NCBI GenBank assembly: GCA_018816945.1
Contig: JAHIVC010000096.1
Coordinates: 1-46,693, forward strand
Length of the DNA stretch: 46,693 nucleotides
From: Bacteroidota bacterium
GTDB lineage: Bacteria; Bacteroidota; Bacteroidia; Bacteroidales; GCA-2711565
Direction of reading: 5' to 3'
Part shown: positions 221 to 34,138 of the stretch, piece by piece
How the letters are laid out: each line of letters starts with the position of its first letter
How positions within the stretch are numbered: position 1 is the stretch's first letter
Notes under the pieces: generated by a model
What the model saw: the letters and a program-made list of their open reading frames with translations, nothing else
Database searches by the model: none
Told to the model about the DNA's origin: nothing
Translations under genes and position numbers: made by a program

Positions 221-2134
221 ATGCTGACATTTAACGAATTGGGATTGTCGCCCAATTTACTCAAGGGCATCGACGCCCTCGGATTTACGAATCCAACCCC
301 AATTCAGGAAAAAATAATACCTATCGTTTTCGAAACCGATAACGATATAGTAGGACTTGCTCAAACCGGCACGGGGAAAACTGCCGCATTCGGACTGCCT
401 ATCATCGAAGAGATTGACTTAAAAAACAAATCGGTGCAGTCCTTAATTTTAGCTCCTACACGCGAGCTTTGTATCCAAATTTCAAAAGATCTGGAAAATT
501 ATTCAAAATTCTTACCCGAAATAGAAATTGTACCTGTTTATGGCGGTGCAAGTATTGATCTGCAGGTTAGGGCACTTAAAAGAGGTGCTCAGATAGTTGT
601 TGCTACTCCGGGTCGTATGCTTGATTTAATTAATCGTAAAGCTGCTAATCTCACCAATATAAAAATTGTTGTGCTCGACGAAGCCGACGAAATGCTGAAC
701 ATGGGTTTTCGTGACGAATTAGATGGAATTCTGGAAAATACACCTAAAACAAAAAGAACCTTGCTGTTTTCGGCAACCATGCCCAATGAAGTTGCCCGTA
801 TCGCTAAAAACTACATGAACGAACCAATACAGATAACCGTTGGAAAACAAAATGCAGGCGCCGATAATGTACGTCACGTATATTACCAGGTACACGCGCG
901 TAATCGTTATCTGGCCCTAAAACGTATTGCAGATATCAATCCTGATATTTATGGATTGGTTTTTTGCCGAACCCGAATGGAAACCAAGGAAGTTGCCGAA
1001 AAATTGATTAAAGACGGTTATAATGCCGATGCGCTGCATGGTGATCTTTCTCAAGCTCAGCGCGATCAGGTCATGGGACGTTTCAGGGAACGAACCTTAC
1101 AAATGCTGGTTGCAACCGATGTTGCTGCCCGTGGAATAGATGTTAATGATATTACCCATGTATTGAATTATAATTTACCCGAAGAAAACGAAATATACAC
1201 TCACAGAAGTGGACGAACAGGACGTGCAGGTAAATCAGGAGTCTCAATTGCCATTGTCAATTACCGTGAAATACATAAAATTCCTCACATCGAAAAACTA
1301 ATTCAAAAGAAATTTGAAAGATTGCCGGTACCCAGCGGCCCTGAAATTTGCAACAAGCAACTCTTTAAATTAATTGACAAGATGGAAAATGTGGAAGTGG
1401 ACGAGGTACAAATTGCCCCATTCATGGAAACCATTAATAAAAAACTGGAATGGTTAAGTAAAGAGCAGATTGTTCAACGATTTGTTTCACTTGAATTTAC
1501 CCGTTTCCTCGAATACTATAAAAATGCACCCGATTTGAACGAGAAAGAAAATAGCAGAAGTGAGAGCCGAGGCAGCAGGGATGGTGGTGAGAGAAGATCA
1601 GGTGGAGAGCGAAGAGACAGGGGCGAACGTAGATCAGGCAGTGAAAGAAGAGAAGGAGGAGAAAGAAGATCAACCGGTGAGAGAAGAGAAGGTGGAGAAA
1701 GAAGGTCATTTCGTGAGCGGAAAGAAGGTACTGAAAGAAGATCAAGCATTGAAAGAAGAAAAGGTGCAGAAAGAAGAATTGGTAGTGATCGAAGAGACAG
1801 TCGAGATAAAAGGGATGAAGGTGGAAGTCGCGATCGATTCAAAAGCAAAAGCAAAGGTGGCTATTCCCGATTCTTCATTAATATCGGACGAAAAGATGGG
1901 ATAGATCCTAAAAATATCATCGGCTTAATTAATGAGAATACTAAGGATCGTGATATTAAAGTAGGTGCCATCGACATCAAAGATAGCTTTTCATTTTTTG
2001 AAGTAGAAGAAAAGGCAAAAACAAAAATATTAAATTCTTTTCAAAACAGCAGATATAATGGCCGTCCTGTAAATGTTGAAGAAGCTGAAGAACTCGATCC
2101 AAGCAAACGTAAAAGAAAACGCAGTGAAGAATAA
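221..2134 (+). CDS. DEAD-box ATP-dependent RNA helicase with GERR-repeat tail and DbpA-type RNA-binding domain
   Basis: Unwinds RNA duplexes using ATP; by family it likely acts in cold adaptation, ribosome assembly or mRNA turnover in the cytoplasm. Visible are the Q motif (PTPIQ, about 25-29), Walker A AQTGTGKT (47-54), PTREL (79-83), DEAD (153-156), SAT (184-186) and, in the second RecA domain, HRSGRTGRAG. Residues about 450-555 form a low-complexity tail of tandem GERR-like units, rich in Arg, Gly, Ser and Glu. A DbpA/CsdA-like RNA-binding domain follows (from about 557, YSRFFINIGRKDG) and the end is basic. Length 637 aa is normal for CsdA/DeaD-like proteins. The start is the first ATG after the -7 box. 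It stands alone, with a strong hairpin about 160 bases downstream. Confidence 0.95.
   Translation: MLTFNELGLSPNLLKGIDALGFTNPTPIQEKIIPIVFETDNDIVGLAQTGTGKTAAFGLPIIEEIDLKNKSVQSLILAPTRELCIQISKDLENYSKFLPEIEIVPVYGGASIDLQVRALKRGAQIVVATPGRMLDLINRKAANLTNIKIVVLDEADEMLNMGFRDELDGILENTPKTKRTLLFSATMPNEVARIAKNYMNEPIQITVGKQNAGADNVRHVYYQVHARNRYLALKRIADINPDIYGLVFCRTRMETKEVAEKLIKDGYNADALHGDLSQAQRDQVMGRFRERTLQMLVATDVAARGIDVNDITHVLNYNLPEENEIYTHRSGRTGRAGKSGVSIAIVNYREIHKIPHIEKLIQKKFERLPVPSGPEICNKQLFKLIDKMENVEVDEVQIAPFMETINKKLEWLSKEQIVQRFVSLEFTRFLEYYKNAPDLNEKENSRSESRGSRDGGERRSGGERRDRGERRSGSERREGGERRSTGERREGGERRSFRERKEGTERRSSIERRKGAERRIGSDRRDSRDKRDEGGSRDRFKSKSKGGYSRFFINIGRKDGIDPKNIIGLINENTKDRDIKVGAIDIKDSFSFFEVEEKAKTKILNSFQNSRYNGRPVNVEEAEELDPSKRKRKRSEE
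1565..1800 (+). repeat. In-gene tandem repeats encoding GERR-type heptads
   Basis: Imperfect 21- to 24-base units built around GGWGARMGAAGA encode repeated [S/G]-x-x-ERR heptads inside the helicase gene. The strong purine bias creates long shadow reading frames on both strands. Such arrays can change length by slippage. Confidence 0.75.
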
Positions 2135-2295
2135 ATGGTATTAACCCTCAGGGCAGAACCCTGAACCCTTGCTTTCGGAGTAGAACCCCGAGGAATTCAA
2201 CCAAACTTCTCTTCCGCCGTAGCGAACGCGAAGGAGGATTAAAATTCGAAAATAAAACGTCGAATCCGTTTTTTTTCGAAGAATGATAGGTTTTT

Positions 2296-2332
2296 AAAAT
2301 AGGCTAAACTTTAAAAAAGTTTAGCCTATTTT
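2296..2332 (+). terminator. Intrinsic terminator after the DEAD-box helicase gene
   Basis: A perfect 16-bp stem (2296-2311 and 2317-2332) with a five-base loop is followed by TTTG and a T-run. It is the most likely transcription end for the helicase gene. The approximately 160 bases between stop codon and hairpin contain GC-rich short repeats such as CAGGG/CCCTG but no gene that I can support. Confidence 0.7.
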
Positions 2333-2373
2333 TGTTTTTTACATTATATTTGGGTTATACATGAATATCAAAC

Positions 2374-2475
2374 ATGAAAACAAACATTTTCTTCAATTCT
2401 CAAAAAAATAAGATCACCGGAATTACCATGTCAATTATCCTATTCATTTTATTATTGCTAAAGATAATTTTTTAG
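2374..2475 (+). CDS. Small hydrophobic peptide, 33 aa (paralogue of the product at 3832)
   Basis: ATG to TAG encodes a 33-residue peptide that starts MKTNIFFNSQKNKITG and ends in one hydrophobic segment (about residues 17-33, Ile/Leu-rich). TATATTTG at 2345-2352 could be its -7 promoter box. The gene at 3832 encodes the same start, KTNIFFNxQKxKITG, with many differences in third codon positions. That pattern points to selection on protein sequence rather than to a recent DNA copy. Function is unknown; a single-span inner-membrane peptide is the simplest reading. Confidence 0.55.
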   Translation: MKTNIFFNSQKNKITGITMSIILFILLLLKIIF

Positions 2476-2547
2476 AGTTGCAATCAACTTTTGACAGATC
2501 CCTTTCTTTTTATGAATATTTATCTCTGATTTAGATCTTTTTTGCCC

Positions 2548-3147
2548 TTACAGGATTTTAAAAATAATTAAGGCATAAGCTATAAAACGAATAAATCTGA
2601 ATAATGCCCATCCCAAATAACTCTTAAAACTGTAGTTTATCAGACCACTTGCCATGCTCACCAATGAATGTGGAATAGGCGTAATTGCTCCGATTACAAT
2701 AAAAAAGCCACCCCATTTTCTAATTTTAATAATATGTTTCTCGATCTTCTGCTCGGTATAATTTTTAACCGAAGGAATTAGATATAGATATTTTCCTATA
2801 AAATAAGAGATGATTCCGGATAGATATGAAATAGTTGCCAAAATGAATATAAACAACCATGGTGTAGCCGACTTAGAACTCCAAGCAATAAAAATTTCAG
2901 GAGGCAACAATCCTAAAAGACTCTCAGAAAATAGAAAAACCGTAAAAATTATTTGAGGGGTATAGTTTGATACCAATGTATTTAGTAATACCTGAATATC
3001 GATAAAAAAATATTCAAGTGCTATGATAACCCCAACAAATATGAGAACAATCAAACCCGACTTATACGCAGTATCTTTTAAAAATTTATAAAATAGTGTT
3101 ATTCGGTAATATCGATGCAAGGCCATCGCTTTTTGATATTTAGTCAT
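2548..3147 (-). CDS. VTT-domain (DedA/SNARE-associated, YqaA-like) inner-membrane protein
   Basis: A 199-aa polytopic protein with roughly four to five hydrophobic segments. It carries the VTT-family pattern of a re-entrant loop with prolines (LLGLLPPEIF) and a second loop with Arg-Gly-Gly and IPHS (RKWGGFFIVIGAITPIPHS), followed by a Gly-containing amphipathic segment. DedA/VTT proteins are implicated in lipid flipping (undecaprenyl phosphate or phospholipid) and in membrane homeostasis; the exact substrate cannot be read here. Size fits the short YqaA-like branch. It sits with the small exported protein at 3266 on the - strand, between the two paralogous small peptide genes. Confidence 0.8.
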   Translation of the reverse strand: MTKYQKAMALHRYYRITLFYKFLKDTAYKSGLIVLIFVGVIIALEYFFIDIQVLLNTLVSNYTPQIIFTVFLFSESLLGLLPPEIFIAWSSKSATPWLFIFILATISYLSGIISYFIGKYLYLIPSVKNYTEQKIEKHIIKIRKWGGFFIVIGAITPIPHSLVSMASGLINYSFKSYLGWALFRFIRFIAYALIIFKIL

Positions 3148-3265
3148 TTTATAATAAGCTGTTAAAAATAATATTGATTAAATAGAATAATAGATAAGAA
3201 TTTAAACTTGTTAAGTAATGCATGGATTTAAATCTGTGCAGATAACACTAAAAAAGTACAGAATT

Positions 3266-3562
3266 TTAACTAAATTTTGGCGGTTGCCAAACTATGCCTG
3301 AAGAATGATGAATTATTATAAATCTCTTTGTGATATATGACTGATACATTAATTCTGTAAAAGGGCAAATTCCTGAATTATTATTTATTTGATCATCATT
3401 TTCATTATCGATATCGGATTTAAACCCTGGATCCGGATTATCCGTAGTCTCCATCACTTCTATAAATGACAATGCTGTGTGATGGCTGATAAATGCAGCA
3501 GTACTGAAATAAATCAGCATTAAAAAAACGATCTTAAACAATAATATTTTATGAATTTTCAT
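3266..3562 (-). CDS. Small exported or membrane-anchored protein of unknown function
   Basis: From MKIHKILLF the product is 98 residues. One hydrophobic N-terminal segment (signal peptide or anchor) is followed by an Asp/Asn-rich acidic stretch and a C-terminus ending IVWQPPKFS. An upstream ATG at 3586 would add eight residues; the later one gives a normal signal peptide and is preferred. The acidic loop and the terminal WQPPK motif recall small Bacteroidota exported proteins of the DUF2946 kind, but I do not assign it. It is upstream of the VTT-domain gene on the same strand, about 120 bases away. Confidence 0.5.
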   Translation of the reverse strand: MKIHKILLFKIVFLMLIYFSTAAFISHHTALSFIEVMETTDNPDPGFKSDIDNENDDQINNNSGICPFTELMYQSYITKRFIIIHHSSGIVWQPPKFS

Positions 3563-3831
3563 CTTGCCGTAAAAGTAATACAACATTTACGACTTAATGA
3601 AAATAAAATGTTAATTATTGTTATAAAAAAACTATTATTTTTGCCAACTTATACTCAGAAAATCATCACTAAATAGTTATAATGAATGGTGTTTACTGAA
3701 ATTGCTTAAATTTGACAGTGATAATTCAAACCCAATTTCAAGAGATGTAATACTGCTATAATAATTTCTTTACTTTTTAGGGCACCCTATTTATTGCATT
3801 ATAATTAGGTCACATGATTTAAATATCCAAT

Positions 3832-16098: not shown

Positions 16099-18981
16099 TT
16101 ACGAATATAAAGTTACGGGGCCGATCAATCCCATTGGGTTGAGTGGCTGATTTTTTCGGGCAAGGTTGGTCCAATACTGTGCAATCGGATTATCGGTCAA
16201 AGATTTCATATAATTACCCATCTCTATAATTACTTTAATTTCAAAGTCGTTTATTCCCGTTTTTAAAAAACTTTTAATCGGATAAATACGGTTTCCATAC
16301 CATCGTATACCGCAACTTTGTCCATTCACCTTTAATTCTGTAACTCCATAAGCTACTCCAATATTTATATAGTCAGGAATGGTCTGATCAATCTCAATCT
16401 GTTTCCTGTACACTACAGTTCCTGAAAAATGGGCGTATTCCGGTATTTCCTTCAGATCTTTGAGTAATTCCAGTCTGGTAGGGTCAACGAATTCTCCACG
16501 ACAATGAATAAATTCAAGCTCCCAGGCACCTGTAACCTCTTTCTGGGTTTTGCCAGATACTGGCTTCTGACACCAATCATCTCCCCTGTTTTCCTTGTCA
16601 AATACGATGATGATCGATTCAGCAGGCCCAAGATTTAGTTCAAATTTTCCATCCTTACCGATTTTTATGCGATAACGCTCGCCACTTTCAGGGTCCCACA
16701 CCCATCCGTGCCGATGACCGGTAATTTCTTTTGAAAATATAATACTTGTATGCTGCGCATTTTGCACATGACTGTTTGCAAAGAAGAAGATTTCCTTGCC
16801 ATCATCACTCCGGTAACGATTCTGCATTAAAAACCGATCCGGTTTTTCAATTTTCAGATAATGCGGAATGGTATATTTGATCATTGCTTCACGATACCAT
16901 TCCAGGAACCTATTATCTTCAGGCTTCTTCAGCAGAATAAACCTGTCGGAGAAAGCTTTTAACTTTTCAACCCAATCCAAAACTTCCCTGTCACGTTTTC
17001 TATAATTGCTTAATCCCAGTGATTTTTCAGGAAATTTTCCGATACAAAAAATCCTGCCACCCTCTGCGACAAAGTCGTACAACTTAGCAAGCGTTTCGGG
17101 ATTCATACCTGAAATTTCTGCAAGAATAAGGGTTCCGAATTTTTTAGGGCCAAAGCAGAGCTTCCCATCTTCTAAAGTTGATTTATTAATGATGATCTCC
17201 GAGGTATAATCCGCAGCCCCACCGTTTTTATTTATAGATTCCCAAAGCAGCGAGGTATAAGGGATGTTGAGTCTTTCAGGAAATGGATCGGTTTGCACAC
17301 CTTTTTCACCCCATAAATCATAATTGGCAGGAAGAATGGCGATATCGGTGTACATATCCGTATTTTGCAAAAGTGCAGATATCCTTGCTTTATAACTGTT
17401 CAGATACTTAAAGTAAGGCCACCAGTTATTTTTTTCATTATAATAGGAACCGTATTGAATCCATCCGGGGTAAGGTGCTTCCGGTGGCGAATAGTTAAAT
17501 CCGTGCCAAAGGGAGTGGGTAATACCTGACATTATACTTTGATCGGAACCCGTTTTTAATCGCTCCAGTGAGGTATTGAACACCAGATATGTATTCGTCA
17601 TCTCTTCGCAGCTAACCACTCTGGTTCCTTTCAGGTGAGCGGCTGATGAAATATATTTATTAATCATCGTATAGGCCCTTCCCCGACGGTAATCATCGTC
17701 GGGCATTTCTTCGCCCACACGGTGCTTAAGCCAGTTTGTGGTCCAGGACTCCCCTTCGGGAATATCGTAATCAATGCTGGTTTCGAGAGGAAAAAAGCCC
17801 CGGCCATAAGCCTGAGCCCTTGATTTAACATTTTGTTCCCTGCACCATTCGAGGTAGGTTTGTGTAAATCGTTCATCAAGCAGTTCTGCTTTTGTCAGTT
17901 CAAAGTCAAAACGGACACGGTAAATTTTCCCGGTAAAATCTGATGTTTTAGCCGCACCATATTTCTCATCAATCACTGCGCCCAACCTGCCAACTTTAAA
18001 CATGATAAAAGGAAGCCAGTCCATAATATCATACCCACGGCGTTTTGCAAATTCAGCTGCGAAGTCGGAAGTCCAGTTGCACCCTTCCAGTTCCATTGAA
18101 TCGGTAAAAAATGCACGGAGGTGATTTGAAAGCGGACCTGTTTTTTCCTGAATGGTATCCGACATGTGGTCGAGGTACTTTCTCACTGCCGTCTTATCCA
18201 TGTGATTAAGTATCGGACCCGCAGCACCCGGCGCTCCATTGATGACACTTGCGAAGGAGCTGACTTTTACAAGCGCATAAAATACATGTTTGCCTGCCGG
18301 TACCTCAACACGGATGTGTTCATCATTTCGCTTGTGCGAAAGTTCAATTATCTGATCCAGAGCACTCATAGGATCAGGAACCATCTTGAGCGAAAGAATT
18401 TCAAAAGTACGCTCATGACAGGGCACGGTTACACCGGGATCAACCTTTTTGAAAATATCGGATCGTAAAATTTCGTAATGAGCAGGACCTTCAATATTTT
18501 CAGCATGAATGATCACAACTTCTGCACGCTCATCCAGACTGAGTGTTTCAGCTCCGAAAGGCCAGCCTGATCCAACAATCAGATCGCAGGTCATTCCCAA
18601 ATGTTTGGCCTCGTCAAAAGTTACCTGTAACATTTCAATCCATTCGTCGCTTAACCAGGTAAGGGAGGGAATCCCCAGATCGTCACCTTCTATGCGCGAT
18701 TGAAACGCTATCGGATTTATCTCAACACCGCCAATTCCGGCTTCTTTTAACAGGTGTAATTCCCTGATCAGCTCATTTTTTTCTATTTTATTTCCATTCC
18801 ACCACCATCGTACGAAAGGCTGGTATTGTGAACCCGGATTTTTGAAGAGTTCGTACAAATCAACCTGATCATCCTGGCTTTTTTCAATAAATGGTGTACT
18901 TGCAAAAACAGGCAATCTGTTAGCAACCAATGCTCCACCTATATATAAAGCACTCTGAACGATAAATTTTCTCCGCTTCAT
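16099..18981 (-). CDS. GH106-like glycoside hydrolase (alpha-L-rhamnosidase family), exported
   Basis: 960 aa. The N-terminus is a Tat-like or Sec signal (KRRKFIVQSALYIGGALVA). Next comes the GH106-type opening, with FVRWWWNGNKIEKNELIRELHLLKEAGIG split around the WWW-N-G motif, then GGVEINPI. Further TIM-barrel segments (SDEWIEMLQVTFDEAKHLG, FTDSMELEG, HGFNYSPPEAPYPGW) and a C-terminal beta-sandwich (FSGTVVYRKQIEID ... GVTELKVNGQ) follow. GH106 enzymes release alpha-L-rhamnose from pectic rhamnogalacturonan or other rhamnosides. It is encoded 26 bases after the GH28-like gene on the same strand, which supports a joint role on a pectin-like glycan. Confidence 0.85.
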   Translation of the reverse strand: MKRRKFIVQSALYIGGALVANRLPVFASTPFIEKSQDDQVDLYELFKNPGSQYQPFVRWWWNGNKIEKNELIRELHLLKEAGIGGVEINPIAFQSRIEGDDLGIPSLTWLSDEWIEMLQVTFDEAKHLGMTCDLIVGSGWPFGAETLSLDERAEVVIIHAENIEGPAHYEILRSDIFKKVDPGVTVPCHERTFEILSLKMVPDPMSALDQIIELSHKRNDEHIRVEVPAGKHVFYALVKVSSFASVINGAPGAAGPILNHMDKTAVRKYLDHMSDTIQEKTGPLSNHLRAFFTDSMELEGCNWTSDFAAEFAKRRGYDIMDWLPFIMFKVGRLGAVIDEKYGAAKTSDFTGKIYRVRFDFELTKAELLDERFTQTYLEWCREQNVKSRAQAYGRGFFPLETSIDYDIPEGESWTTNWLKHRVGEEMPDDDYRRGRAYTMINKYISSAAHLKGTRVVSCEEMTNTYLVFNTSLERLKTGSDQSIMSGITHSLWHGFNYSPPEAPYPGWIQYGSYYNEKNNWWPYFKYLNSYKARISALLQNTDMYTDIAILPANYDLWGEKGVQTDPFPERLNIPYTSLLWESINKNGGAADYTSEIIINKSTLEDGKLCFGPKKFGTLILAEISGMNPETLAKLYDFVAEGGRIFCIGKFPEKSLGLSNYRKRDREVLDWVEKLKAFSDRFILLKKPEDNRFLEWYREAMIKYTIPHYLKIEKPDRFLMQNRYRSDDGKEIFFFANSHVQNAQHTSIIFSKEITGHRHGWVWDPESGERYRIKIGKDGKFELNLGPAESIIIVFDKENRGDDWCQKPVSGKTQKEVTGAWELEFIHCRGEFVDPTRLELLKDLKEIPEYAHFSGTVVYRKQIEIDQTIPDYINIGVAYGVTELKVNGQSCGIRWYGNRIYPIKSFLKTGINDFEIKVIIEMGNYMKSLTDNPIAQYWTNLARKNQPLNPMGLIGPVTLYS

Positions 18982-19007
18982 GAATGGGAAGTTTAAGCCC
19001 GTTTTGA

Positions 19008-20495
19008 CTACTTGCTAATATTCACTTTTGTTGAATTATAGGAATAAACCGGATCTTTTTTCTTTCCGGGTTCCGTAACTTTAAGTGAGGTAAATGTAGC
19101 ATCCTGTACATCATCGAGTACAATGGCTGTTCTGTATTCAGCTTTATCCGCAACGAGCGTAACATGATCGAATATGATATGATCGGCATGCCTGATGTAG
19201 AATCCCCATGCAGGAAGCTCTTTAAACATCGAAAATTCAGGATAACTTGCAGCCATCTCGGGTACTTTATCCAATTCGTCCAGACCCAGTTTTGCATAAT
19301 TAGGATCACTTCCGCCAGGATAATGAATCTCAATGTTCCGTAAAGTGACATTTGTAATATTCACATCCTCAGCCCCTACGATGGAGGCAGGTGAAATATT
19401 TCTGGGAAGATCTTCAACCGGGCCTTCATAACTGTATCCTGCATCGGCTTTGGTTGCGGGAACAGTTGCATATACATTTGAGATGCTGATATTGTTCATT
19501 CTCCCTTTCTTTCCGGCAACCCGCTCCCCTATGCGAAGAAAAATGACATTACCGGTATTGATCGATCTTAAGCTGTCGACTACAATATCTTCAACAAAAC
19601 CCCCATCTACCGCCGCAAATGTAATCGCTGACCTATAAGTGTCATAAACTAAATTATTGATGATTTTAATATTTTTAAAACCACCTCTTGAGGCGGTGCC
19701 AAATTTGATCCCATTGGCACTGGTACGCACTACATTATTGTAGATATATACATTTTGACACACAAAATCGGCACTGTGCGATTTAAGGCAAATGCCGTCG
19801 TCGGCAGCATCAAAGTAACTGTTTCTGACGATGACACTATCGCAATCGACGATATCCACCCCATCATTGTTCCAGTATGATTTACTATCGACTGTAATTC
19901 CATCGATGAGCAGATTTTTACATTGGTCGTATTGTTGATTCCAGCAACCCGGATCTTTGAGAATGATTCCCTGAATCGTCACGTTTTTGCATCCTTTGAA
20001 GTAAATATTTTGTGGACGGATGCTTTCTCTGGGCCGATCGTAAATCAAATTCTGAGGATCTTTAATAATTCCTTTATGCACCATCGCAAGGATATTGTTT
20101 GCCACCTTGTATCCCTGTCCATCGATCACCCCTTTTCCTGTAATCGCAATATTTTCCTGATCATGAGCAAAGATAAGTGCCTGCCACGATCCTATTTTTT
20201 CATAATCGAACGGATTAGTCGAACCTACAAGGATTGCACCCTCTTCAAGATGAAGGGTTACATTCGATTTTAGATGAATGGTACCGGTAAGATATCTGCC
20301 GACATACAACATTAATCGCCCCCCTCCTTTATGATGGATATAGTCAATTGCGGCCTGAATTGAGTTTGTGTTCAGGGTGGTTCCGTTCGACTCGATCCCA
20401 AAAAGTGAAGCTTTATAGTCCTGTGCCTGCAGAAACACAGAAATGGATAGCAGCATCGCTATCAGGACGAATTTTGATGTTTTAAATTTTTCCAT
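19008..20495 (-). CDS. GH28-like polygalacturonase-fold protein with altered active-site motifs, exported
   Basis: 495 aa with a signal peptide (LLSISVFLQAQ). A right-handed beta-helix is clear from GNGVIDGQ-like ITGKGVIDGQGY, NIYFKGCKNVTIQGI, CWNQQYDQCKNLLIDGI and regular repeats. GH28 motifs I and II are partly kept (NNDGVDIVDC, AADDGICLKS, supplying the Asp residues). The GHG motif is replaced (SANGIKFG) and the RIK motif position reads SAITF. It may therefore cut a different uronic or rhamnose linkage, or bind rather than cleave. First gene of a two-gene unit with the GH106-like enzyme. Confidence 0.8.
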   Translation of the reverse strand: MEKFKTSKFVLIAMLLSISVFLQAQDYKASLFGIESNGTTLNTNSIQAAIDYIHHKGGGRLMLYVGRYLTGTIHLKSNVTLHLEEGAILVGSTNPFDYEKIGSWQALIFAHDQENIAITGKGVIDGQGYKVANNILAMVHKGIIKDPQNLIYDRPRESIRPQNIYFKGCKNVTIQGIILKDPGCWNQQYDQCKNLLIDGITVDSKSYWNNDGVDIVDCDSVIVRNSYFDAADDGICLKSHSADFVCQNVYIYNNVVRTSANGIKFGTASRGGFKNIKIINNLVYDTYRSAITFAAVDGGFVEDIVVDSLRSINTGNVIFLRIGERVAGKKGRMNNISISNVYATVPATKADAGYSYEGPVEDLPRNISPASIVGAEDVNITNVTLRNIEIHYPGGSDPNYAKLGLDELDKVPEMAASYPEFSMFKELPAWGFYIRHADHIIFDHVTLVADKAEYRTAIVLDDVQDATFTSLKVTEPGKKKDPVYSYNSTKVNISK

Positions 20496-24630: not shown

Positions 24631-27600
24631 CTAATTATTTAATGGAAAAATTTCTCTAAAATAAGTCTCGCTATTAATATCTATTATTTTATCCCTGCAT
24701 TTTACTAAATCTGTATTTGAAATATTTAAGATTTTATTATTTAATTCATCTATAAGTTGTGCATTTTTAGAAACTTTGTTTTTTCTAGAATCAATCTCGG
24801 ATAAAGTAATCTGCTCAATTTCATTCTCAAGATTTTCAACGATTTTTTGTGATGTTTCGATGCGTTTTAGACGTTGATTTATAAAATAGCTTTTAAATAT
24901 CGGTGTTTTGACCTTTAAAGGTTTTCCTTTAAGTTCAGGATATTTATTTTGTAATTGTTCAACTTTTCTTTTTTGAAGTACACCAATCAAGTTCTTATTT
25001 ATTTGAAGTTCTTCACCCTTCAGCTCAGGATAATTATTTAATATAGACTCAATTTCTTTATTTAAGTGTTCAATTTTGCCAAGTATCAGTTTTTCATCCT
25101 GTTTTGCTTGTGAAAGAAGATTATTTAATTGTATAGTGGAGGATTTTAAAAATTCTGGATTCCTAATAAGTTCTGTTAAAAAAGCAGAGTGCTTATCAGT
25201 AGTTGTTGTGATTAAAATGTTTTTTATAGCTCTTGTGACACCTACATAACAAACGCGTCTTTCTTCCTCTAACTGGTTCTCACTTTGTGGATTATCATAT
25301 TGAGACAAATTAAAATATACGACATTTGTAAATTCTTTGCCTTTTGTTGAGTGTATTGTTGTTAATTGTACTTCATTATTGTTTATTTCAGTAGTGACAT
25401 TTCGTTCATAGGGCTCGTTTATCGAGTTATAGATTTGTGAGTAAAAATCAGATATTGAATTAAATAGCTTTGAGACAGACACTATAACTTCAAGCAAAAT
25501 ATCATCACCTGCTTTTTCAATCTCATTAACAACGAGTGATTGGTCTTTGTAATATGCTTTGAAATTAAAAGTGTCGAAAATTGCTGTTACTAATTTCTCA
25601 GGTGTATCTAAAGAAATACCAACCTTTGATTTAATTGCAATAATTTGTTCAATAAAATTTCTGACATTATCCTTCCTCCATTGTTCATGAGGTATTTCAT
25701 GTAGATTTATAAACGTATCCCAATTTGTTGCATGTGATATTAATTCATTAGTAAAATATTTATTCGGTCTTTTTAGAATTCGCTCAAAATTTTCATTTGT
25801 AGCATCGTTTGGATGCAATAAAACAGTTAAATAAGCATATAAATCTTTCCCGGGATTTTTTGCAAATAGTCGATAGTTATTAATTGGAGTATGAGGTATG
25901 TTATAACTATCTAAAAGCATTGCTATCGGAAATTGAAATTCATGAAACCTATATAATACTGCAAATTCTTTCCAATTTATTTTTAACTTTTCTTTTTGTT
26001 CTCTAATCCAATCAACTGCTTTAACAGCCTGTTCATATAGATTGTCCGCTATTTCAATTTGAAATTCTCCAATTTCGGCATTAAGTTTTGGATTGATGTC
26101 TTTTGGAACTCTACTTTTATTATTTTGAATTAACCAACTTGAATGTTTTACTACCTTTTTGGTACAACGATAATTGGTAGATAATGTATAATCTTTCGAA
26201 TTCACATACCGCTGAGGAAAATTTAATATGTGTGAAATTTTTGCTCCACGCCAACCATAAATCATTTGGTCATCATCCCCAACAATGAAAAGATTATTAT
26301 TGGGTAAAGATAAAATCTCCATTAAAAGAAGCTGTGCTTCGTTCAAATCCTGAAATTCATCAACTAAAATATATTGAAATCTATTTTGAAGACTATTCCT
26401 TGCTATTCTGTTATCTAGCAGAATTCGCAAGGATAAATAAATCATGTCATCGAAATTGAAAAAATTATGATTCTTTTGAATTTCTAAATACTTGTAGAAG
26501 ATGTCATCGAAGGCAATTATATTATCATCAAGTTCCACACTAATATCATGCACTGGGATGAGTTCCATCTTTGCTTTTCTAAGTGCTTCAAGCATCTTAT
26601 CAATGGTGTCATTTACTTTATAGCCAGGCACATTAATAAACGGCGTATAAGCTTGTCTAATAAAATTTCTAGTATCTAAAATTTCTCTTTCACCATTGAA
26701 TTGCCATCTTAAATAATCTCTAATCAACTCAAATCCAAAAGAATGAAATGTCCTGATTGATACTCCGGCTTCACTTAGTTTCTTTGATATAATTATGCCT
26801 CTTTTATCCAACCTTTCAGACATTTCATCAGCAGCTTTTTTATTAAATGCCAAAGCAAGAATTTTATTTTCATCAATTCCTTCATTTATTAAATGAGAAA
26901 TACGATTTACTAATGTTTTTGTCTTTCCAGAGCCAGCAGGAGCCAAAACTCTGCTTGGCCCTGTGATATGAGTTAAGGCCATTTTTTGGCTATCGTCCAG
27001 ATTACTATCAATTGATTTTGCATTTCTTGTAATTGGAACATTTAAAGATTGCTCAATTTTTTCAAGACAATTAGAAGGAGAATTAAATATTTCAGAACCA
27101 GTTAGCCTTAAAATACGAATTCCGAATTTTTGTAATTCCTTATCTCTTTCGAAATCCTTATTAGGATTGTGGTATTCACGTCCATCACATTCAACAATTA
27201 ATTTTTTATCTCCCCTTTCAACTAGAAAATCAACATAATGTCGGCCTAATTTTACTTGTGCTTTATATGAAATATTATTTTCCTCTAACAATTTCTTAGT
27301 AATTAATTCAATTGGAGTATAATTAATGTCAACATCTAATGAGTTTGAAATTGAATTATAAGTAATATTGACCTGACTCAACAAGGAATAAATTTGCTCA
27401 ATAAACAATAGTCTAAGAATCTCTTTAGAATCTGTGTGTATTAAACTACTATTTATTTGAATGTTGGCATACTCATTTTTATCAATGGATGTAAAAAAAG
27501 CTATGGGGATATTTTTATAGTAAACTGGATATATTAATTTGTTAACGATTTCCTCAACAACTGTTTTGAATGTATCAATATCCAAATCCTGAAAAAAAAC

Positions 27601-27804
27601 AAAGAACTCAAAATTAATTACATTAATATCAGGAATTTGAGACCCTCTGCTTATGTCGGAAGATTTTATAAATAACTTAGTAATACCAACGCTATCAAGT
27701 GATTCGCTGAACTCTCCAACCTGATTTGAAACAGCATTATAAAATGAAATTCCCTTTTTACGGTTTAAAAAGTATTCTATCCTATTGAAATAATTAGCAA
27801 ACAT
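24631..27804 (-). CDS. Cassette 1: UvrD/Rep-type helicase with N-terminal PD-(D/E)xK (DUF559-like) nuclease domain
   Basis: 1057 aa. Residues 1-165 are unassigned. Residues about 165-255 look like a DUF559/Vsr-like nuclease: VDFLV (D192), KLIVECDGREYH (E205, D207) and RILRLTGSEIF. From about 268 a superfamily-1A helicase follows: Q motif (DDSQKMALTHI), Walker A APAGSGKT (288-295), TFHSFG, VDEFQDL (motif II), GDDDQMIYGWRGA (III), YRCTKKVV (IV), TTIHSTKGKEF (V) and RRVCYVGVTRAIKN (VI). Residues about 905-1057 are charged and coiled-coil-like, with a repeated NYPELKGE/KYPELKGK motif. Nuclease-helicase fusions of this kind are common in phage-defence loci. The gene sits alone in a cassette-like unit opened at 28006 and closed by element 3, far larger than typical integron cassettes. 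Confidence 0.88.
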   Translation of the reverse strand: MFANYFNRIEYFLNRKKGISFYNAVSNQVGEFSESLDSVGITKLFIKSSDISRGSQIPDINVINFEFFVFFQDLDIDTFKTVVEEIVNKLIYPVYYKNIPIAFFTSIDKNEYANIQINSSLIHTDSKEILRLLFIEQIYSLLSQVNITYNSISNSLDVDINYTPIELITKKLLEENNISYKAQVKLGRHYVDFLVERGDKKLIVECDGREYHNPNKDFERDKELQKFGIRILRLTGSEIFNSPSNCLEKIEQSLNVPITRNAKSIDSNLDDSQKMALTHITGPSRVLAPAGSGKTKTLVNRISHLINEGIDENKILALAFNKKAADEMSERLDKRGIIISKKLSEAGVSIRTFHSFGFELIRDYLRWQFNGEREILDTRNFIRQAYTPFINVPGYKVNDTIDKMLEALRKAKMELIPVHDISVELDDNIIAFDDIFYKYLEIQKNHNFFNFDDMIYLSLRILLDNRIARNSLQNRFQYILVDEFQDLNEAQLLLMEILSLPNNNLFIVGDDDQMIYGWRGAKISHILNFPQRYVNSKDYTLSTNYRCTKKVVKHSSWLIQNNKSRVPKDINPKLNAEIGEFQIEIADNLYEQAVKAVDWIREQKEKLKINWKEFAVLYRFHEFQFPIAMLLDSYNIPHTPINNYRLFAKNPGKDLYAYLTVLLHPNDATNENFERILKRPNKYFTNELISHATNWDTFINLHEIPHEQWRKDNVRNFIEQIIAIKSKVGISLDTPEKLVTAIFDTFNFKAYYKDQSLVVNEIEKAGDDILLEVIVSVSKLFNSISDFYSQIYNSINEPYERNVTTEINNNEVQLTTIHSTKGKEFTNVVYFNLSQYDNPQSENQLEEERRVCYVGVTRAIKNILITTTTDKHSAFLTELIRNPEFLKSSTIQLNNLLSQAKQDEKLILGKIEHLNKEIESILNNYPELKGEELQINKNLIGVLQKRKVEQLQNKYPELKGKPLKVKTPIFKSYFINQRLKRIETSQKIVENLENEIEQITLSEIDSRKNKVSKNAQLIDELNNKILNISNTDLVKCRDKIIDINSETYFREIFPLNN

Positions 27805-30941: not shown

Positions 30942-32096
30942 TCACATTCCCAGTTCTTTGCGCCTGATTTTTATTTGCATGCATCCCGGTATGGGTTGTT
31001 CGGTTAAAAGTATGAGATAGCCGCCACCGCCTGCACCGGCCAATTTCCAGGCCAGGGCTTTGTCTTTATAATGATCAATAATCTCCTTTATTTTATCGTC
31101 CATCATGGCCGGAAACATGGTGGTTTGTGCCTTGAAAGAATTCAAAAAGGCTTCGGCAAATTTTTCTAAATTTTTGGTTTTAACAGCTTCCCATGCTTTT
31201 TCGGAGGCATCGGCCAATGCCTGAACATTTTCTTTGTTAATATAGGTTTCCTTAAGCAAATCGAGCCCCTGCTTTCGGGGCCAAAGCAGTACCATATTCA
31301 GGTGCTTTTCTAACCAAAACAAAATACTCTCGTCATGAATTTCCTCGAACTTTACGGGCCAGTAAGCATGATCGTAATAATGGCGAACCAAGCCGGGCAT
31401 GCAAATCCCGATCGCATCCTGAGCACCGGAAATCAATTCGGAACCCGGCGTATTTTCATATTTAAAAAGGATTTCGGCCAACTTTTCAGGCTTATCGATG
31501 GGCAGGTTATGCGGCCATAATTTTTTCGCTGCATTTCGGGTTGATGTGGCCATTCCGCAACGCTCGTTATATTCGACTATGGGCTCCAATGATAAGGTAA
31601 TGGCCCATCCCGGGTGGTATTTCGAAACATAGGGCTGGTCGATCCAGGTACCTGCAATGTCAATCCGGTAAGGCAAGTTGCAGTTATCCGACGAACGGAT
31701 AGCGGTGGTCGATCGGGCAGGCAATCCCGCATCGGGAATCCGCTCCAACACTTTTAATTCAATTCCAAGTTCTCTGCAAAATTTTGCTTTGAGCGGAGAA
31801 AATCCGTCTTCATTCACCACTATATAATCGGGCTTCAGGTTCCGCACATTTTCTTCGAAGTCCATCATTCCCGAACCCTTATTGATAAAGGCTTCTTTAA
31901 CATATTTTACAGCCCTGATCATGTACAGGCGCTCCTGCTCACTGTTAACGGTGTCGCGCCCCTTCAATTCGCGAATGGTTTGATCGGACCCGATCCCGAC
32001 ATACACTTCTCCGAATTTTGCTGCTTCCTTAAAAAAAGCGACATGCCCGCTATGGAGCATATCGTAACATCCGGAAACAAATACTTTCTTACTCAT
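30942..32096 (-). CDS. Bifunctional nucleotidyltransferase-GHMP kinase fusion, likely sugar (L-fucose) activation
   Basis: 384 aa. N-terminal cytidylyltransferase-like domain (1-135): GCYDMLHSGH with HSGH at 15-18, and RSTTAIRS at 128-135, the ISSTxIR-like motif. C-terminal GHMP kinase (about 138-384): motif 1 PYRIDIAGTWIDQP (142-155) and motif 3 KLAGAGGGGYL (351-361). The usual ATP loop PxxGLGSS is replaced by PGSELISGAQDA (217-228). The likely jobs are 1-phosphorylation of a sugar and transfer of a nucleotide to it. It is downstream of FucP and FucU genes, so L-fucose or a similar 6-deoxy-sugar is the best guess. It is unrelated in layout to the 949-aa Fkp of Bacteroides. No metal or substrate can be assigned. 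Confidence 0.85.
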   Translation of the reverse strand: MSKKVFVSGCYDMLHSGHVAFFKEAAKFGEVYVGIGSDQTIRELKGRDTVNSEQERLYMIRAVKYVKEAFINKGSGMMDFEENVRNLKPDYIVVNEDGFSPLKAKFCRELGIELKVLERIPDAGLPARSTTAIRSSDNCNLPYRIDIAGTWIDQPYVSKYHPGWAITLSLEPIVEYNERCGMATSTRNAAKKLWPHNLPIDKPEKLAEILFKYENTPGSELISGAQDAIGICMPGLVRHYYDHAYWPVKFEEIHDESILFWLEKHLNMVLLWPRKQGLDLLKETYINKENVQALADASEKAWEAVKTKNLEKFAEAFLNSFKAQTTMFPAMMDDKIKEIIDHYKDKALAWKLAGAGGGGYLILLTEQPIPGCMQIKIRRKELGM

Positions 32097-32214
32097 GATT
32101 CTTGTTCTATTTAAGCTTAATCAAATCAATGCAGACGTAACATTAAGCATGCTAAGTGGCAAATAAAAAAATTCTTAAAGTTGACTATCCCCGTGGCAGA
32201 GCCATGCGGTACTT

Positions 32215-32390
32215 GCCTGACCTGCCAGTCCGGCAGGCTGGCGACCAAGCAGGTTTCGTTAACTTTATTTCAGCTTATGGCTGAAATACGAATTTTTATT
32301 ATTTTACCCCTCTGTCAGTCTATCGACTGACATCTCCCCTGATATTCAGGGGAGATTATACTGAAATCCCGAAGCAGAGCTTCGGGGAAT
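32215..32390. repeat. Cluster of short hairpins between the kinase fusion and fucP
   Basis: Four inverted repeats follow one another: 32267-32287 (ATTTCAGC/GCTGAAAT), 32314-32331 (GTCAGTC/GACTGAC), 32334-32354 (CTCCCCTGA/TCAGGGGAG) and 32368-32386 (CCCGAAGC/GCTTCGGG). A GGCAGG/CCTGCC-rich part lies at about 32211-32253. The last one begins just after the fucP stop codon and may end or attenuate its transcript. The arrangement looks like a Bacteroidota intergenic repeat, and I see no gene in it. Confidence 0.6.
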
Positions 32391-32393
32391 TAT

Positions 32394-33686
32394 TTATATT
32401 AAGCGTTTTTTGTACGATCGGTATCCATAAACCGTAATAACACAGAAGCTGATCAATGGCAATACGAAGGAGGCATTCACTGCAGGTAAAAAGCCAACAC
32501 GCCCCAAATCGATAATTGCCCCTTGCAGTGGTGGCATCAATGCTCCGCCAACAATGGCCATGACCAATCCTGCTGAACCCATGGTGACGTCATTTCCAAC
32601 AGTTCCCAGAGCTATTCCATAAATGGTTGGGAACATTAAGGACATGAACGCAGAAGTTGCAATCAGAAAATACAATCCGATCATGCCTTCAATCAAAATG
32701 GTACACGAAATCGTGATCATTCCGGCAATGGCAAACCACATCAGCAGTTTTCGTGCATTGATGTATTTCATTAAAAAGGTGCTCACAAATCTTCCGATCA
32801 GAAAAGCAAACATGGCCGCGATATTGTAGTTTTGAGCTGTTGCTTTATCGATGCCCAGATTTTCGGCATATTGGATAATAAAGGTCCAACACATGATTTG
32901 AGCCGCCACATAAAATACCTGAGCAATCACACCTTCGCGATACAAACTGTTCGTCAAAAGCCTTTTTATGGAACCCTTTACATCCACTTTATTTACCTGA
33001 CCCGATTGGGGCATTTTGATCATGGCAATAACCACAAACATGATGATAACTACCAGTCCCAATGCCACATAGGGATTACGGATGATCATTAAGTCGTTGG
33101 TACGAATGGCAGCTTTGGTCGTTTCATCCAAAGTTGAGAAAATCAATTCGCCTGCGGCATTTCGTTGTTTATCAGATACCAATCCTGCAAGGATCAATTT
33201 TGAGGCGACAAACATTCCCAGTAATGAACCCATGGGATTGAATGCTTGTGCGAGGTTCAGCCGTTGGGTGGCTGTTTCTTTTGCACCCAGTGACAAAATA
33301 AATGGGTTTGCGGTTGTTTCCAGAAATGCCAATCCGAATGTAAGAATGTAGAGCGATCCTAAAAAGATCCCAAACATTTGAAATTGAGCGGCGGGCCAGA
33401 ACAATAATGCACCTATGGCATAAAGTGCCAATCCCAGCAGGATTCCTTTTTTATATGAATATTTTTGAATGAACAAGGCTGCAGGGATCGCCATGGTTGC
33501 ATAACCTCCATAAAAAGCGAGCTGAATGAGTGAAGCCTTGAAATTCGATATTTCCATGATCGTTCGAAATGCAGCAACCATCGGGTTGGTAATATCATTG
33601 GCGAAACCCCAGAGTGCAAATAAACTGGTGATCAATATAAACGGAAAAAGGTTTTTTTGGTCGACAATTTTAATTTTCGAATGCAT
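32394..33686 (-). CDS. fucP: L-fucose:H+ symporter-type sugar MFS permease
   Basis: 430 aa with 12 hydrophobic segments. The opening FPFILITSLFALWGFANDITNPMV (shown in part), then the family's LIQLAFYGGYATMAIPAALF and FLETTANPF, are FucP-type signatures, including the helix residues around N-P-M that line the fucose path. It takes up L-fucose, or related hexoses, with protons across the inner membrane. It lies 23 bases after the FucU-type mutarotase gene on the same strand. Confidence 0.88.
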   Translation of the reverse strand: MHSKIKIVDQKNLFPFILITSLFALWGFANDITNPMVAAFRTIMEISNFKASLIQLAFYGGYATMAIPAALFIQKYSYKKGILLGLALYAIGALLFWPAAQFQMFGIFLGSLYILTFGLAFLETTANPFILSLGAKETATQRLNLAQAFNPMGSLLGMFVASKLILAGLVSDKQRNAAGELIFSTLDETTKAAIRTNDLMIIRNPYVALGLVVIIMFVVIAMIKMPQSGQVNKVDVKGSIKRLLTNSLYREGVIAQVFYVAAQIMCWTFIIQYAENLGIDKATAQNYNIAAMFAFLIGRFVSTFLMKYINARKLLMWFAIAGMITISCTILIEGMIGLYFLIATSAFMSLMFPTIYGIALGTVGNDVTMGSAGLVMAIVGGALMPPLQGAIIDLGRVGFLPAVNASFVLPLISFCVITVYGYRSYKKRLI

Positions 33687-33709
33687 AAATTCTTTTTGAA
33701 AGTCAGCGC

Positions 33710-34138
33710 TTAGGTGATAACCCCTTTTTTAAGTATGATATTTCCATATTTTGCGGTTTCGCCTGTCATCACGATCGCAAAAGCACCCTTTGATCTTTCA
33801 TAGAATTTAAATCTTTCAAGTCGTTCAATTAAAGGTACCGTTTTACAAAAAGGAGCAATGCTTTTTAAATAGGATGCTTCAACCTTTAAATCGAGTTTAT
33901 CACCCTCACCCGGATTCATCATAATAAGCGGATAGTGAACATAATTGTCCAATTCGAATAAAGGCATGATCGCTTTCAGCAGGTCGGCTATTTTCAGGCC
34001 ATCCGCCCGGATAACATTTTTGTTCAGGCTTTTGCCCGGATAGTGTGCATCGGCTAATACGATTTCATCGCCATGCCCCATGCTGGCTAATGTTTTTAAT
34101 AATTTGGGGCTGATTAATGGAGATATTCCTTTGAGCAT
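33710..34138 (-). CDS. fucU: L-fucose mutarotase (FucU/RbsD family)
   Basis: 142 aa. [35 protein letters not shown] (shown in part), with catalytic His in MGHGD and DAHYP, then [14 protein letters not shown], is the FucU/RbsD signature. The C-terminus has [22 protein letters not shown] with the Tyr and Tyr/Asn residues of the pocket. It interconverts sugar anomers (alpha and beta L-fucose), which feeds a C1-acting kinase or isomerase. First gene of the FucU-FucP-kinase fusion run. The bifunctional fusion would need a particular anomer, which fits the pairing. Confidence 0.9.

Follow-up and report, generated by a model that had tools for sequence, protein, structure and literature searches.

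What becomes of free L-fucose once it has been taken up by a bacterium in which the fucose transporter and mutarotase are encoded next to a fused transferase and kinase? The question is raised by a contig of 46,693 nucleotides (JAHIVC010000096.1, assembly GCA_018816945.1; the whole stretch is called the window below) from a Bacteroidota bacterium of the order Bacteroidales, in which three minus-strand open reading frames (ORFs) are transcribed in the order FucU, FucP and a 384-amino-acid (aa) fusion. An earlier note on this DNA had described FucU, FucP and a fusion with HSGH and GHMP motifs as a same-strand cluster, and the three ORFs confirm it:

33710-34138, minus strand: FucU, L-fucose mutarotase (NCBIfam equivalog NF011949, 196.3 bits, cut-off 141)
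32394-33686, minus strand: FucP, L-fucose:H+ symporter (NCBIfam equivalog TIGR00885, 562.5 bits, cut-off 280.4)
30942-32096, minus strand: 384-aa nucleotidyltransferase-GHMP kinase fusion, the proposed L-fucose salvage enzyme (ORF, Pfam/NCBIfam and relatives)

We propose, from sequence comparison, that the 384-aa fusion is a compact bifunctional L-fucose salvage enzyme standing in for Fkp of Bacteroides fragilis, and we give this reading a probability of about 0.7. Fkp is the sole bifunctional fucose salvage enzyme described in the portions of PMC11982464 and PMC12732313 drawn on here. The note's suggestion of a different route to nucleoside diphosphate (NDP)-fucose is supported by the residues of the sugar pocket, the gene neighborhoods, a fusion to a mutarotase, co-occurrence with FucP and non-overlap with Fkp.

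Domain architecture and sugar pocket of the fusion

Conservation was read from 82 aligned sequences, comprising 79 rows of the family proper (40-97% identity to the window protein) and three members of a sister type, a 450-aa fusion (loci L153-L155) with the same domain order and a likewise compact kinase. The features of the window protein are as follows:

31695-32096, minus strand: HxGH cytidylyltransferase-like domain, residues 1-134 (PF01467 and fold comparison)
32043-32054, minus strand: HSGH motif, residues 15-18 (both His in 78 of 79 family rows; the remaining row, L047, is truncated there)
30945-31691, minus strand: compact GHMP kinase domain, residues 136-384 (hhalign to the Fkp kinase part, VIA-align)
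31638-31667, minus strand: sugar-pocket motif RIDIAGTWID, residues 144-153, corresponding to Fkp Arg592, Trp599 and Asp601 (R144, W151 and D153 in 79 of 79 rows)
31536-31562, minus strand: phosphate-loop equivalent RCGMATSTR, residues 179-187, corresponding to Fkp loop 712-720 (R179, G181, S185 and R187 in 79 of 79)
31455-31457, minus strand: Glu214, the likely equivalent of Fkp Glu751, with its spacing to the Asp off by two (79 of 79 rows)
31416-31427, minus strand: GAQD, residues 224-227, equivalent of the catalytic Asp762 of Fkp (G, Q and D in 79 of 79; aligned with Fkp GWQD)
31017-31040, minus strand: GHMP motif 3, AGAGGGGY, residues 353-360 (profile and PDB alignments)

The domain order had been taken in the earlier note to be unlike that of Fkp (B. 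fragilis; PDB 9IIT, 9IIP and 5YYS; NF009948), but a nucleotidyltransferase comes first and a GHMP kinase second in both proteins. What sets them apart is their size (949 residues in B. fragilis Fkp, 384 in the fusion) and the nature of the first half: the fusion scores only 35.8 bits against NF009948 (cut-off 721), over residues 302-368 only, and its N-terminal half is a CTP_transf_like domain with an HxGH motif instead of a GDP-fucose pyrophosphorylase of the Fkp type. The proposed overall reaction is the same, so the fusion would work like Fkp, yet by its pyrophosphorylase half and its curated score it is not a member of the Fkp family.

The transferase half is a standard HxGH domain, and the nucleoside triphosphate (NTP) it uses is not readable from the fold. 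CTP_transf_like (PF01467), the sole Pfam family over its cut-off on the fusion, matches residues 7-134 with 57.5 bits (cut-off 21), which places this half in the HxGH superfamily, and fold comparison gave VIA-align Z scores of 15.1-16.5 to 5x3d, 3glv, 2b7l and 1coz; these neighbors are the Fom1 CyTase, glycerol-3-phosphate cytidylyltransferases and a Thermoplasma lipopolysaccharide-core protein. That the protein is no more than a cytidylyltransferase of the glycerol-phosphate or choline type is ruled out by the conserved kinase half and sugar pocket; the glycerol-3-phosphate cytidylyltransferase model itself reaches 27.9 bits (cut-off 165.4).

The assignment of the second half to the GHMP kinases is weak in Pfam, where GHMP_kinases_C reaches 16.3 bits at residues 334-366 (below its cut-off of 21) and GHMP_kinases_N gave no match on the fusion at E ≤ 0.1; profile and fold comparison nevertheless bear it out, as do motifs shared across the 82 aligned sequences. 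Alignment of this half by hhalign with the kinase part of four Fkp proteins gave a probability of 99.2 in global mode, and of 97.8 in local mode from GAQD onward only. Among the matches listed, VIA-align Z scores to GHMP enzymes were 13.5-18.8, and the GHMP fold and motif 3 are both present. The GHMP models of NCBIfam that match are led by Fkp (best E 2e-9), ahead of mevalonate kinase (1e-3) and heptose kinase (6e-3).

It is the sugar pocket that points to fucose. In B. fragilis Fkp, according to the passages on the active site in PMC11982464, Trp599 stacks on fucose, whose hydroxyls are bound by Asp601, Thr602, Gln761 and Asp762; catalysis involves Arg592 and also Asp762, the proposed base, and the variants E751A and D762A are inactive. 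The equivalents of R592, W599, D601, E751, G759, Q761 and D762 are identical in 79 of 79 rows (seven of eight positions in the motif alignment), the equivalence of E751 depending on an alignment with a two-residue shift. The position of Thr602 is Gln in all 79, so that the fucose-pocket residues of Fkp and the fusion are alike but one. The Ser that corresponds to the Mg-binding Ser719 of Fkp is also kept in every row, and the Trp/Asp/Gln/Asp pocket recurs in three of three sister proteins; these share 28-30% alignment identity with the window family and have QSGH instead of HSGH. The correspondence of sugar motif and loop to Fkp was taken from motif spacing and, for the sugar motif only, from the PDB profile alignment as well; in that search the sugar motif scored 22.1 bits to Fkp but 6.4-7.3 bits to heptose kinases, in which a Gly takes the place of the fucose-stacking Trp. 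The segment PGSELISGAQDA, read in the earlier note as a modified ATP loop, turns out to lie in the catalytic-Asp region, where GAQD (224-227) matches GWQD of Fkp; alignment with Fkp and the sister type rules it out as the ATP loop, whose equivalent is RCGMATSTR.

Spread, neighborhoods and co-occurrence

A search for relatives returned 51 loci with 67-97% identity of the best segment, mainly from Flavobacteriaceae, Prolixibacteraceae and Marinilabiliaceae, and whole-genome searches added members down to 40% identity. Two loci, L048 (with an in-frame stop in the matched stretch) and L047 (truncated), were kept out of alignment A1 and the tree, but entered the conservation and neighborhood counts; A1 omits 18 of the 52 rows (the window and L001-L051). 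In a sample of 296 genomes of the phylum, a near-full-length match was found in four; for the 183 other genomes counted the best E-value was 1.6e-20 or weaker, and among the matches listed these cover the transferase half only, one of them extending to residue 176. Within the window's order, the family or the sister type occurs in 54 of 339 genomes at E ≤ 1e-30, and in six of the 54 every match has 31-33% identity and lies in a frame of 449-470 aa, which marks the 450-aa sister type (three of these were read). The distribution is patchy even within the window's genus, where two of four sampled genomes carry the gene. No relative was found at E ≤ 1e-10 in 72,556 plasmid records, a search that left phage and E. 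coli collections outside.

We looked for twelve marker proteins up to 6 kb away at 82 loci (the window, L001-L051, L084-L087 and L130-L155, three of them of the sister type), with queries taken from the loci themselves, score thresholds set for the survey and labels checked on samples. Gmd was found at 19 loci, Fcl at 16, FucP at 15, RhaM at 13, ManC at seven and FucU at four; GH95, the aldolase and GDP-mannose 3,5-epimerase at three each, GH29 at two, and FucI and FucK at one each. Altogether 41 of the 82 loci have a fucose-use gene (FucU, FucP, RhaM, FucI, FucK, GH29 or GH95; 23 loci) or a GDP-mannose/GDP-fucose gene (Gmd, Fcl or ManC; 24 loci) within this distance, six having both kinds; the marker lies on the same strand as the fusion at 36 of the 41 and on the opposite strand only at five. 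The loci come from related species and are hence not 82 independent events. As controls we took 32 stretches, picked by contig number, out of genomes that carry the family (490,046 bases in total, four of the stretches being under 15 kb); no marker appeared in any of them. The exact trio with fucU and fucP described in the earlier note is rare, FucU and FucP occurring together at only four loci; what recurs is a broader association, with FucP, gmd/fcl/manC or a mutarotase from either of the two families.

The fullest cluster is that of L130, in the order aldolase-FucP-FucU-fusion-FucI-FucK-GH29, where FucP, FucU, FucI and FucK exceed their cut-offs and the aldolase that for rhamnulose-1-phosphate aldolase. 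Some labels elsewhere stand at or below the equivalog cut-off, namely Fcl of L086 (500.2 bits vs 500) and of L133 (425 vs 500), and ManC of L133 (288.5) and L141 (256.8; cut-off 372.95). The proteins of L149 and L151 carry a RhaM mutarotase domain fused ahead of the enzyme (PF05336, E 2.9e-21 and 1.5e-20), an arrangement that would suit an enzyme requiring a single anomer of a free sugar. A 600-aa open frame is found in a third genome, G877. Three Mariniphaga loci encode a guanylate-kinase-like protein of 250 aa (Guanylate_kin, E 1.3e-9 in the copy from L042), directly downstream of the fusion at L029 and L042 and one gene further at L028.

A subfamily with 40-41% identity to the window protein (L084 and L152) raises the possibility that the true substrate is another sugar of L-galacto configuration, such as L-galactose or D-arabinose, with fucose a minor one, or that the family is split by substrate. 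Both loci adjoin genes for GDP-mannose 3,5-epimerase (L152: 2c59, E 1.9e-100; L084 by BLAST) and RhaM, L084 also has GH95, and three genomes (G176, G756 and G890) carry both subfamilies; the G890 copy on contig C64 is a putative member of the 40-41% subfamily. This subfamily may be a salvage enzyme from L-galactose to GDP-L-galactose, a natural guess. The tree joins L084/L152 with L153-L155 through long branches, and this grouping is not to be relied on. We hold another main substrate, or a family split by substrate, to be decidedly unlikely, as the genes next to the window protein and its closer relatives (FucU, FucP, FucI, FucK and gmd/fcl) are all fucose genes.

Co-occurrence of genes points in the same direction as the neighborhoods. 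Among 198 genomes of the order, FucP exceeds its cut-off in 21 of the 22 that have the main type and in 36 of the remaining 176 (Fisher 3e-12, in a test that takes no account of phylogeny). Fkp does not overlap with the family in the subsets of 57 genomes with FucP over its cut-off (P 0.010) and of 76 genomes with FucP at E ≤ 1e-60 (P 0.045). In the sample of 339 genomes, which contains genomes of the first sample, the family or sister type was found in 54 and Fkp in 25, and no genome had the two together where 4.0 would be expected (P 0.011; with the main type taken by itself, P 0.019); in four taxonomic families (f119, f131, f133 and f152) Fkp and the fusion family occur in different genomes. 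We also searched 40 family-bearing genomes (those of 36 of the 51 named loci, and G000, G035, G078 and G176) for Fkp, Gmd and FucI. Fkp exceeded its cut-off in none of them, and none of the 48 matches listed at E ≤ 0.001 lay within the pyrophosphorylase half of Fkp; since Fkp is rare in the class sample (5 of 295), its absence from Flavobacteriaceae members says little. Gmd is present in 38 of the 40 (a count with no baseline for comparison), and FucI in 23 at E ≤ 1e-60, of which 22 are over the cut-off. G078 has, at 985-3648 of its stretch L090, a separate large ORF with a 76.7-bit match to the Fkp kinase region; it is ruled out as Fkp by the cut-off, an 888-aa part of it gave no Pfam family at E ≤ 1e-6, and it adjoins a nucleotidyltransferase-like ORF, a pair that might be another route in that genome.

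In the window itself, FucU and FucP are separated by 23 bp, and FucP and the fusion by 297 bp, most of which is a repeat:

32150-32393, no strand: strongly palindromic dispersed repeat in the fucP/fusion gap, outside the enzyme (244 bp, folding z-score -10.0)

The repeat has 33 matches in the genome, including itself. It looks like an insertion into this gap, because in L001, a relative of 97% identity, just 57 bp lie between the end of the FucP match and the fusion match. Gmd and FucP are present in the window's own genome, and no FucI match was found there at E ≤ 1e-60; with FucP and a mutarotase and without FucI, the trio would not belong to the usual isomerase pathway, and uptake and mutarotation without the isomerase fit salvage better than the usual breakdown (the dehydrogenase route lying outside this comparison). 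Elsewhere in the window, adjoining GH106 alpha-L-rhamnosidase and GH28 genes (16099-20495) suggest pectin use by the host. A 1057-aa UvrD-type helicase is encoded at 24631-27804, and residues 172-254 of it form a DUF559/MTES_1575-like nuclease domain ahead of the helicase part; RTasHel and many models of the GajB helicase are among its PADLOC matches, and it may possibly be a defence gene, or show plain helicase similarity.

Evidence against the proposal and rival readings

Several observations weigh against a fucose salvage enzyme, and the first group concerns the nucleotide site of the kinase. In Fkp, loop 712-720 holds the triphosphate, and modelling placed Asp644, Met645, Pro666, Ile669 and Leu722 about the base (PMC11982464, as above). 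The distance from the pocket Trp to the loop is 116 residues in four Fkp proteins, 40 in the three sister proteins and 30 in 79 of 79 family rows, which makes the fusion 86 residues shorter than Fkp between sugar motif and phosphate loop; because Fkp 644-669 lies in the middle of this interval, the stretch modelled around adenine appears to have no counterpart in the fusion family. The canonical glycine-rich loop (PAGSGLGTSS in the Fkp of L100) is altered as well: its first Gly is replaced by Arg179 in 79 of 79 rows and a second Arg (Arg187) follows the loop in all 79, while G181, T184, S185 and T186 are retained or conservative. Kinase activity with ATP is therefore not assured; the sugar site would be intact, and the nucleotide site rebuilt or eroded.

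If eroded, the kinase half could be catalytically dead, a module that binds fucose or GDP-fucose, with fucose-1-phosphate coming from elsewhere and the transferase half the sole enzyme. The missing adenine stretch and the Arg in the loop speak for this, as does the AlphaFold model (mean pLDDT, the predicted local distance difference test, 72.8; alignment of 34 rows, 68-77% identical to the window protein), which resolves residues 173-201 poorly; with pLDDT below 50 at 13-16, 120-142, 173-201 and 217-223, the model gave no basis for reading the ATP site. We regard a dead kinase as unlikely all the same. The catalytic Asp, the Glu, the equivalent of the Mg-coordinating Ser and the sugar pocket are invariant in all 79 rows, and no Fkp that could supply fucose-1-phosphate exceeded its cut-off in the 40 genomes (a search that did not cover other stand-alone fucokinases). 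Nor does compactness imply a dead kinase, because the sister type, compact too, keeps the canonical loop PRGSGLSTST in the three members read.

The second group concerns similarity to heptose enzymes; on that reading, a GHMP heptose kinase and an HldC/HldE-like adenylyltransferase would together form ADP-heptose. Against the PDB, the whole GHMP profile (33 rows, including the three sister proteins) is slightly nearer to heptose kinases (3k85 and 4usm; 8e-19 and 6e-18) than to Fkp (3e-17), and the best fold match is the heptose kinase WcbL, with Z 18.8 vs 14.2-17.0 for three Fkp entries; on the predicted model, the fold scores do not tell Fkp and heptose kinases apart, and the substrate is not named by the fold. 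The transferase half resembles RfaE domain II (E 3e-13; 49.7 bits, cut-off 181.5), the related HxGH transferase of HldE/HldC, and the kinase half shares the GHMP fold with HddA and WcbL. HldE, however, has its kinase, of the PfkB type, first and its HxGH part at model positions 342-406 of 475; the fusion has the reverse order and a GHMP-type kinase, and reaches 39.5 bits against the HldE equivalog (cut-off 521). Trp151, the equivalent of the fucose-stacking residue, is invariant where heptose kinases have Gly, fucose or GDP-fucose neighbors occur at half of the loci (in a survey that made no systematic search for heptose genes), and the family co-occurs with FucP, a context of fucose. A heptose enzyme thus seems very improbable.

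A third group concerns the nucleotide of the transferase half. We know of no HxGH enzyme that prefers GTP; the nearest solved HxGH relatives are known as CTP or ATP enzymes, and most of the solved relatives among the matches listed are cytidylyltransferases. A guanine-recognition signature was sought by eye in the fusion sequences and none could be supported. The enzyme might accordingly use CTP or ATP and form CDP- or ADP-L-fucose, products of which we know no report; no paper on CDP-fucose was found in our literature search (ADP-fucose being outside it). We consider this somewhat unlikely, given the recurrent linkage to genes of GDP-mannose, GDP-fucose and GDP-mannose 3,5-epimerase. GDP and GTP are favored because the neighbors in both subfamilies make GDP-linked sugars (gmd, fcl and manC; GDP-mannose 3,5-epimerase), and all known fucosyltransferases use GDP-fucose, as put in the portions of PMC12732313 drawn on here.

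The remaining points concern the context. Half of the loci (41 of 82) have none of the listed genes within 6 kb, including all five from Carboxylicivirga, 21 of 29 from Flavobacteriaceae and all three of the sister type; RhaM is named for L-rhamnose and is alone no pointer to fucose. FucP is also present in two of the three sister-type genomes among the 198 and hence is not specific to the main type. Fkp, found in 12 of the 198 and never with the family, gives a one-sided P of 0.19, which is not significant; in the larger sample the non-overlap is moderately significant, with phylogeny ignored.

A possible route to GDP-L-fucose

For the compact salvage enzyme we infer both catalytic activities, the order of the steps, GTP as substrate, the phosphoryl donor and the product. 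FucP would import free L-fucose, and a mutarotase (FucU in the window, a RhaM-type protein elsewhere) would set the anomer. The C-terminal GHMP half would then phosphorylate the anomeric hydroxyl, with Asp227 as the base and Trp151 stacking on the sugar, and the N-terminal HxGH half would convert the resulting beta-L-fucose-1-phosphate and an NTP, most likely GTP, into NDP-fucose (GDP-L-fucose) and pyrophosphate; GDP-L-fucose would go to surface glycans.

An intact sugar pocket without the adenine stretch raises the question of the phosphoryl donor. A more speculative variant, which we think quite improbable, is an independently evolved Fkp in which a GTP-using HxGH transferase is joined to a GHMP kinase that has discarded its adenine pocket because its phosphoryl donor is other than ATP. 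The invariant Arg179 and Arg187 flanking the loop could hold pyrophosphate from the transferase half, closing a cycle within one molecule, with L-fucose and GTP giving GDP-fucose and phosphate as the net reaction.

The passages of PMC12732313 on phylogeny favor a single fusion origin for all known FKPs; UniRef50 was searched there with FUK, GFPP and FKP models, and the FKP tree was limited to proteins of 745-1745 residues. Neither "cytidylyltransferase" nor "nucleotidyltransferase" is present in the main text of that paper, and our literature search, with subscription papers and preprints outside it, returned no description of the HxGH-GHMP fusion. If the proposal is true, an enzyme of 384 aa with an unrelated transferase half would represent a second origin of bifunctional fucose salvage. 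It might also offer a much smaller catalyst for GDP-fucose, a compound called prohibitively expensive in the same source (PMC12732313), and would explain how many Bacteroidota that lack Fkp may recycle fucose.

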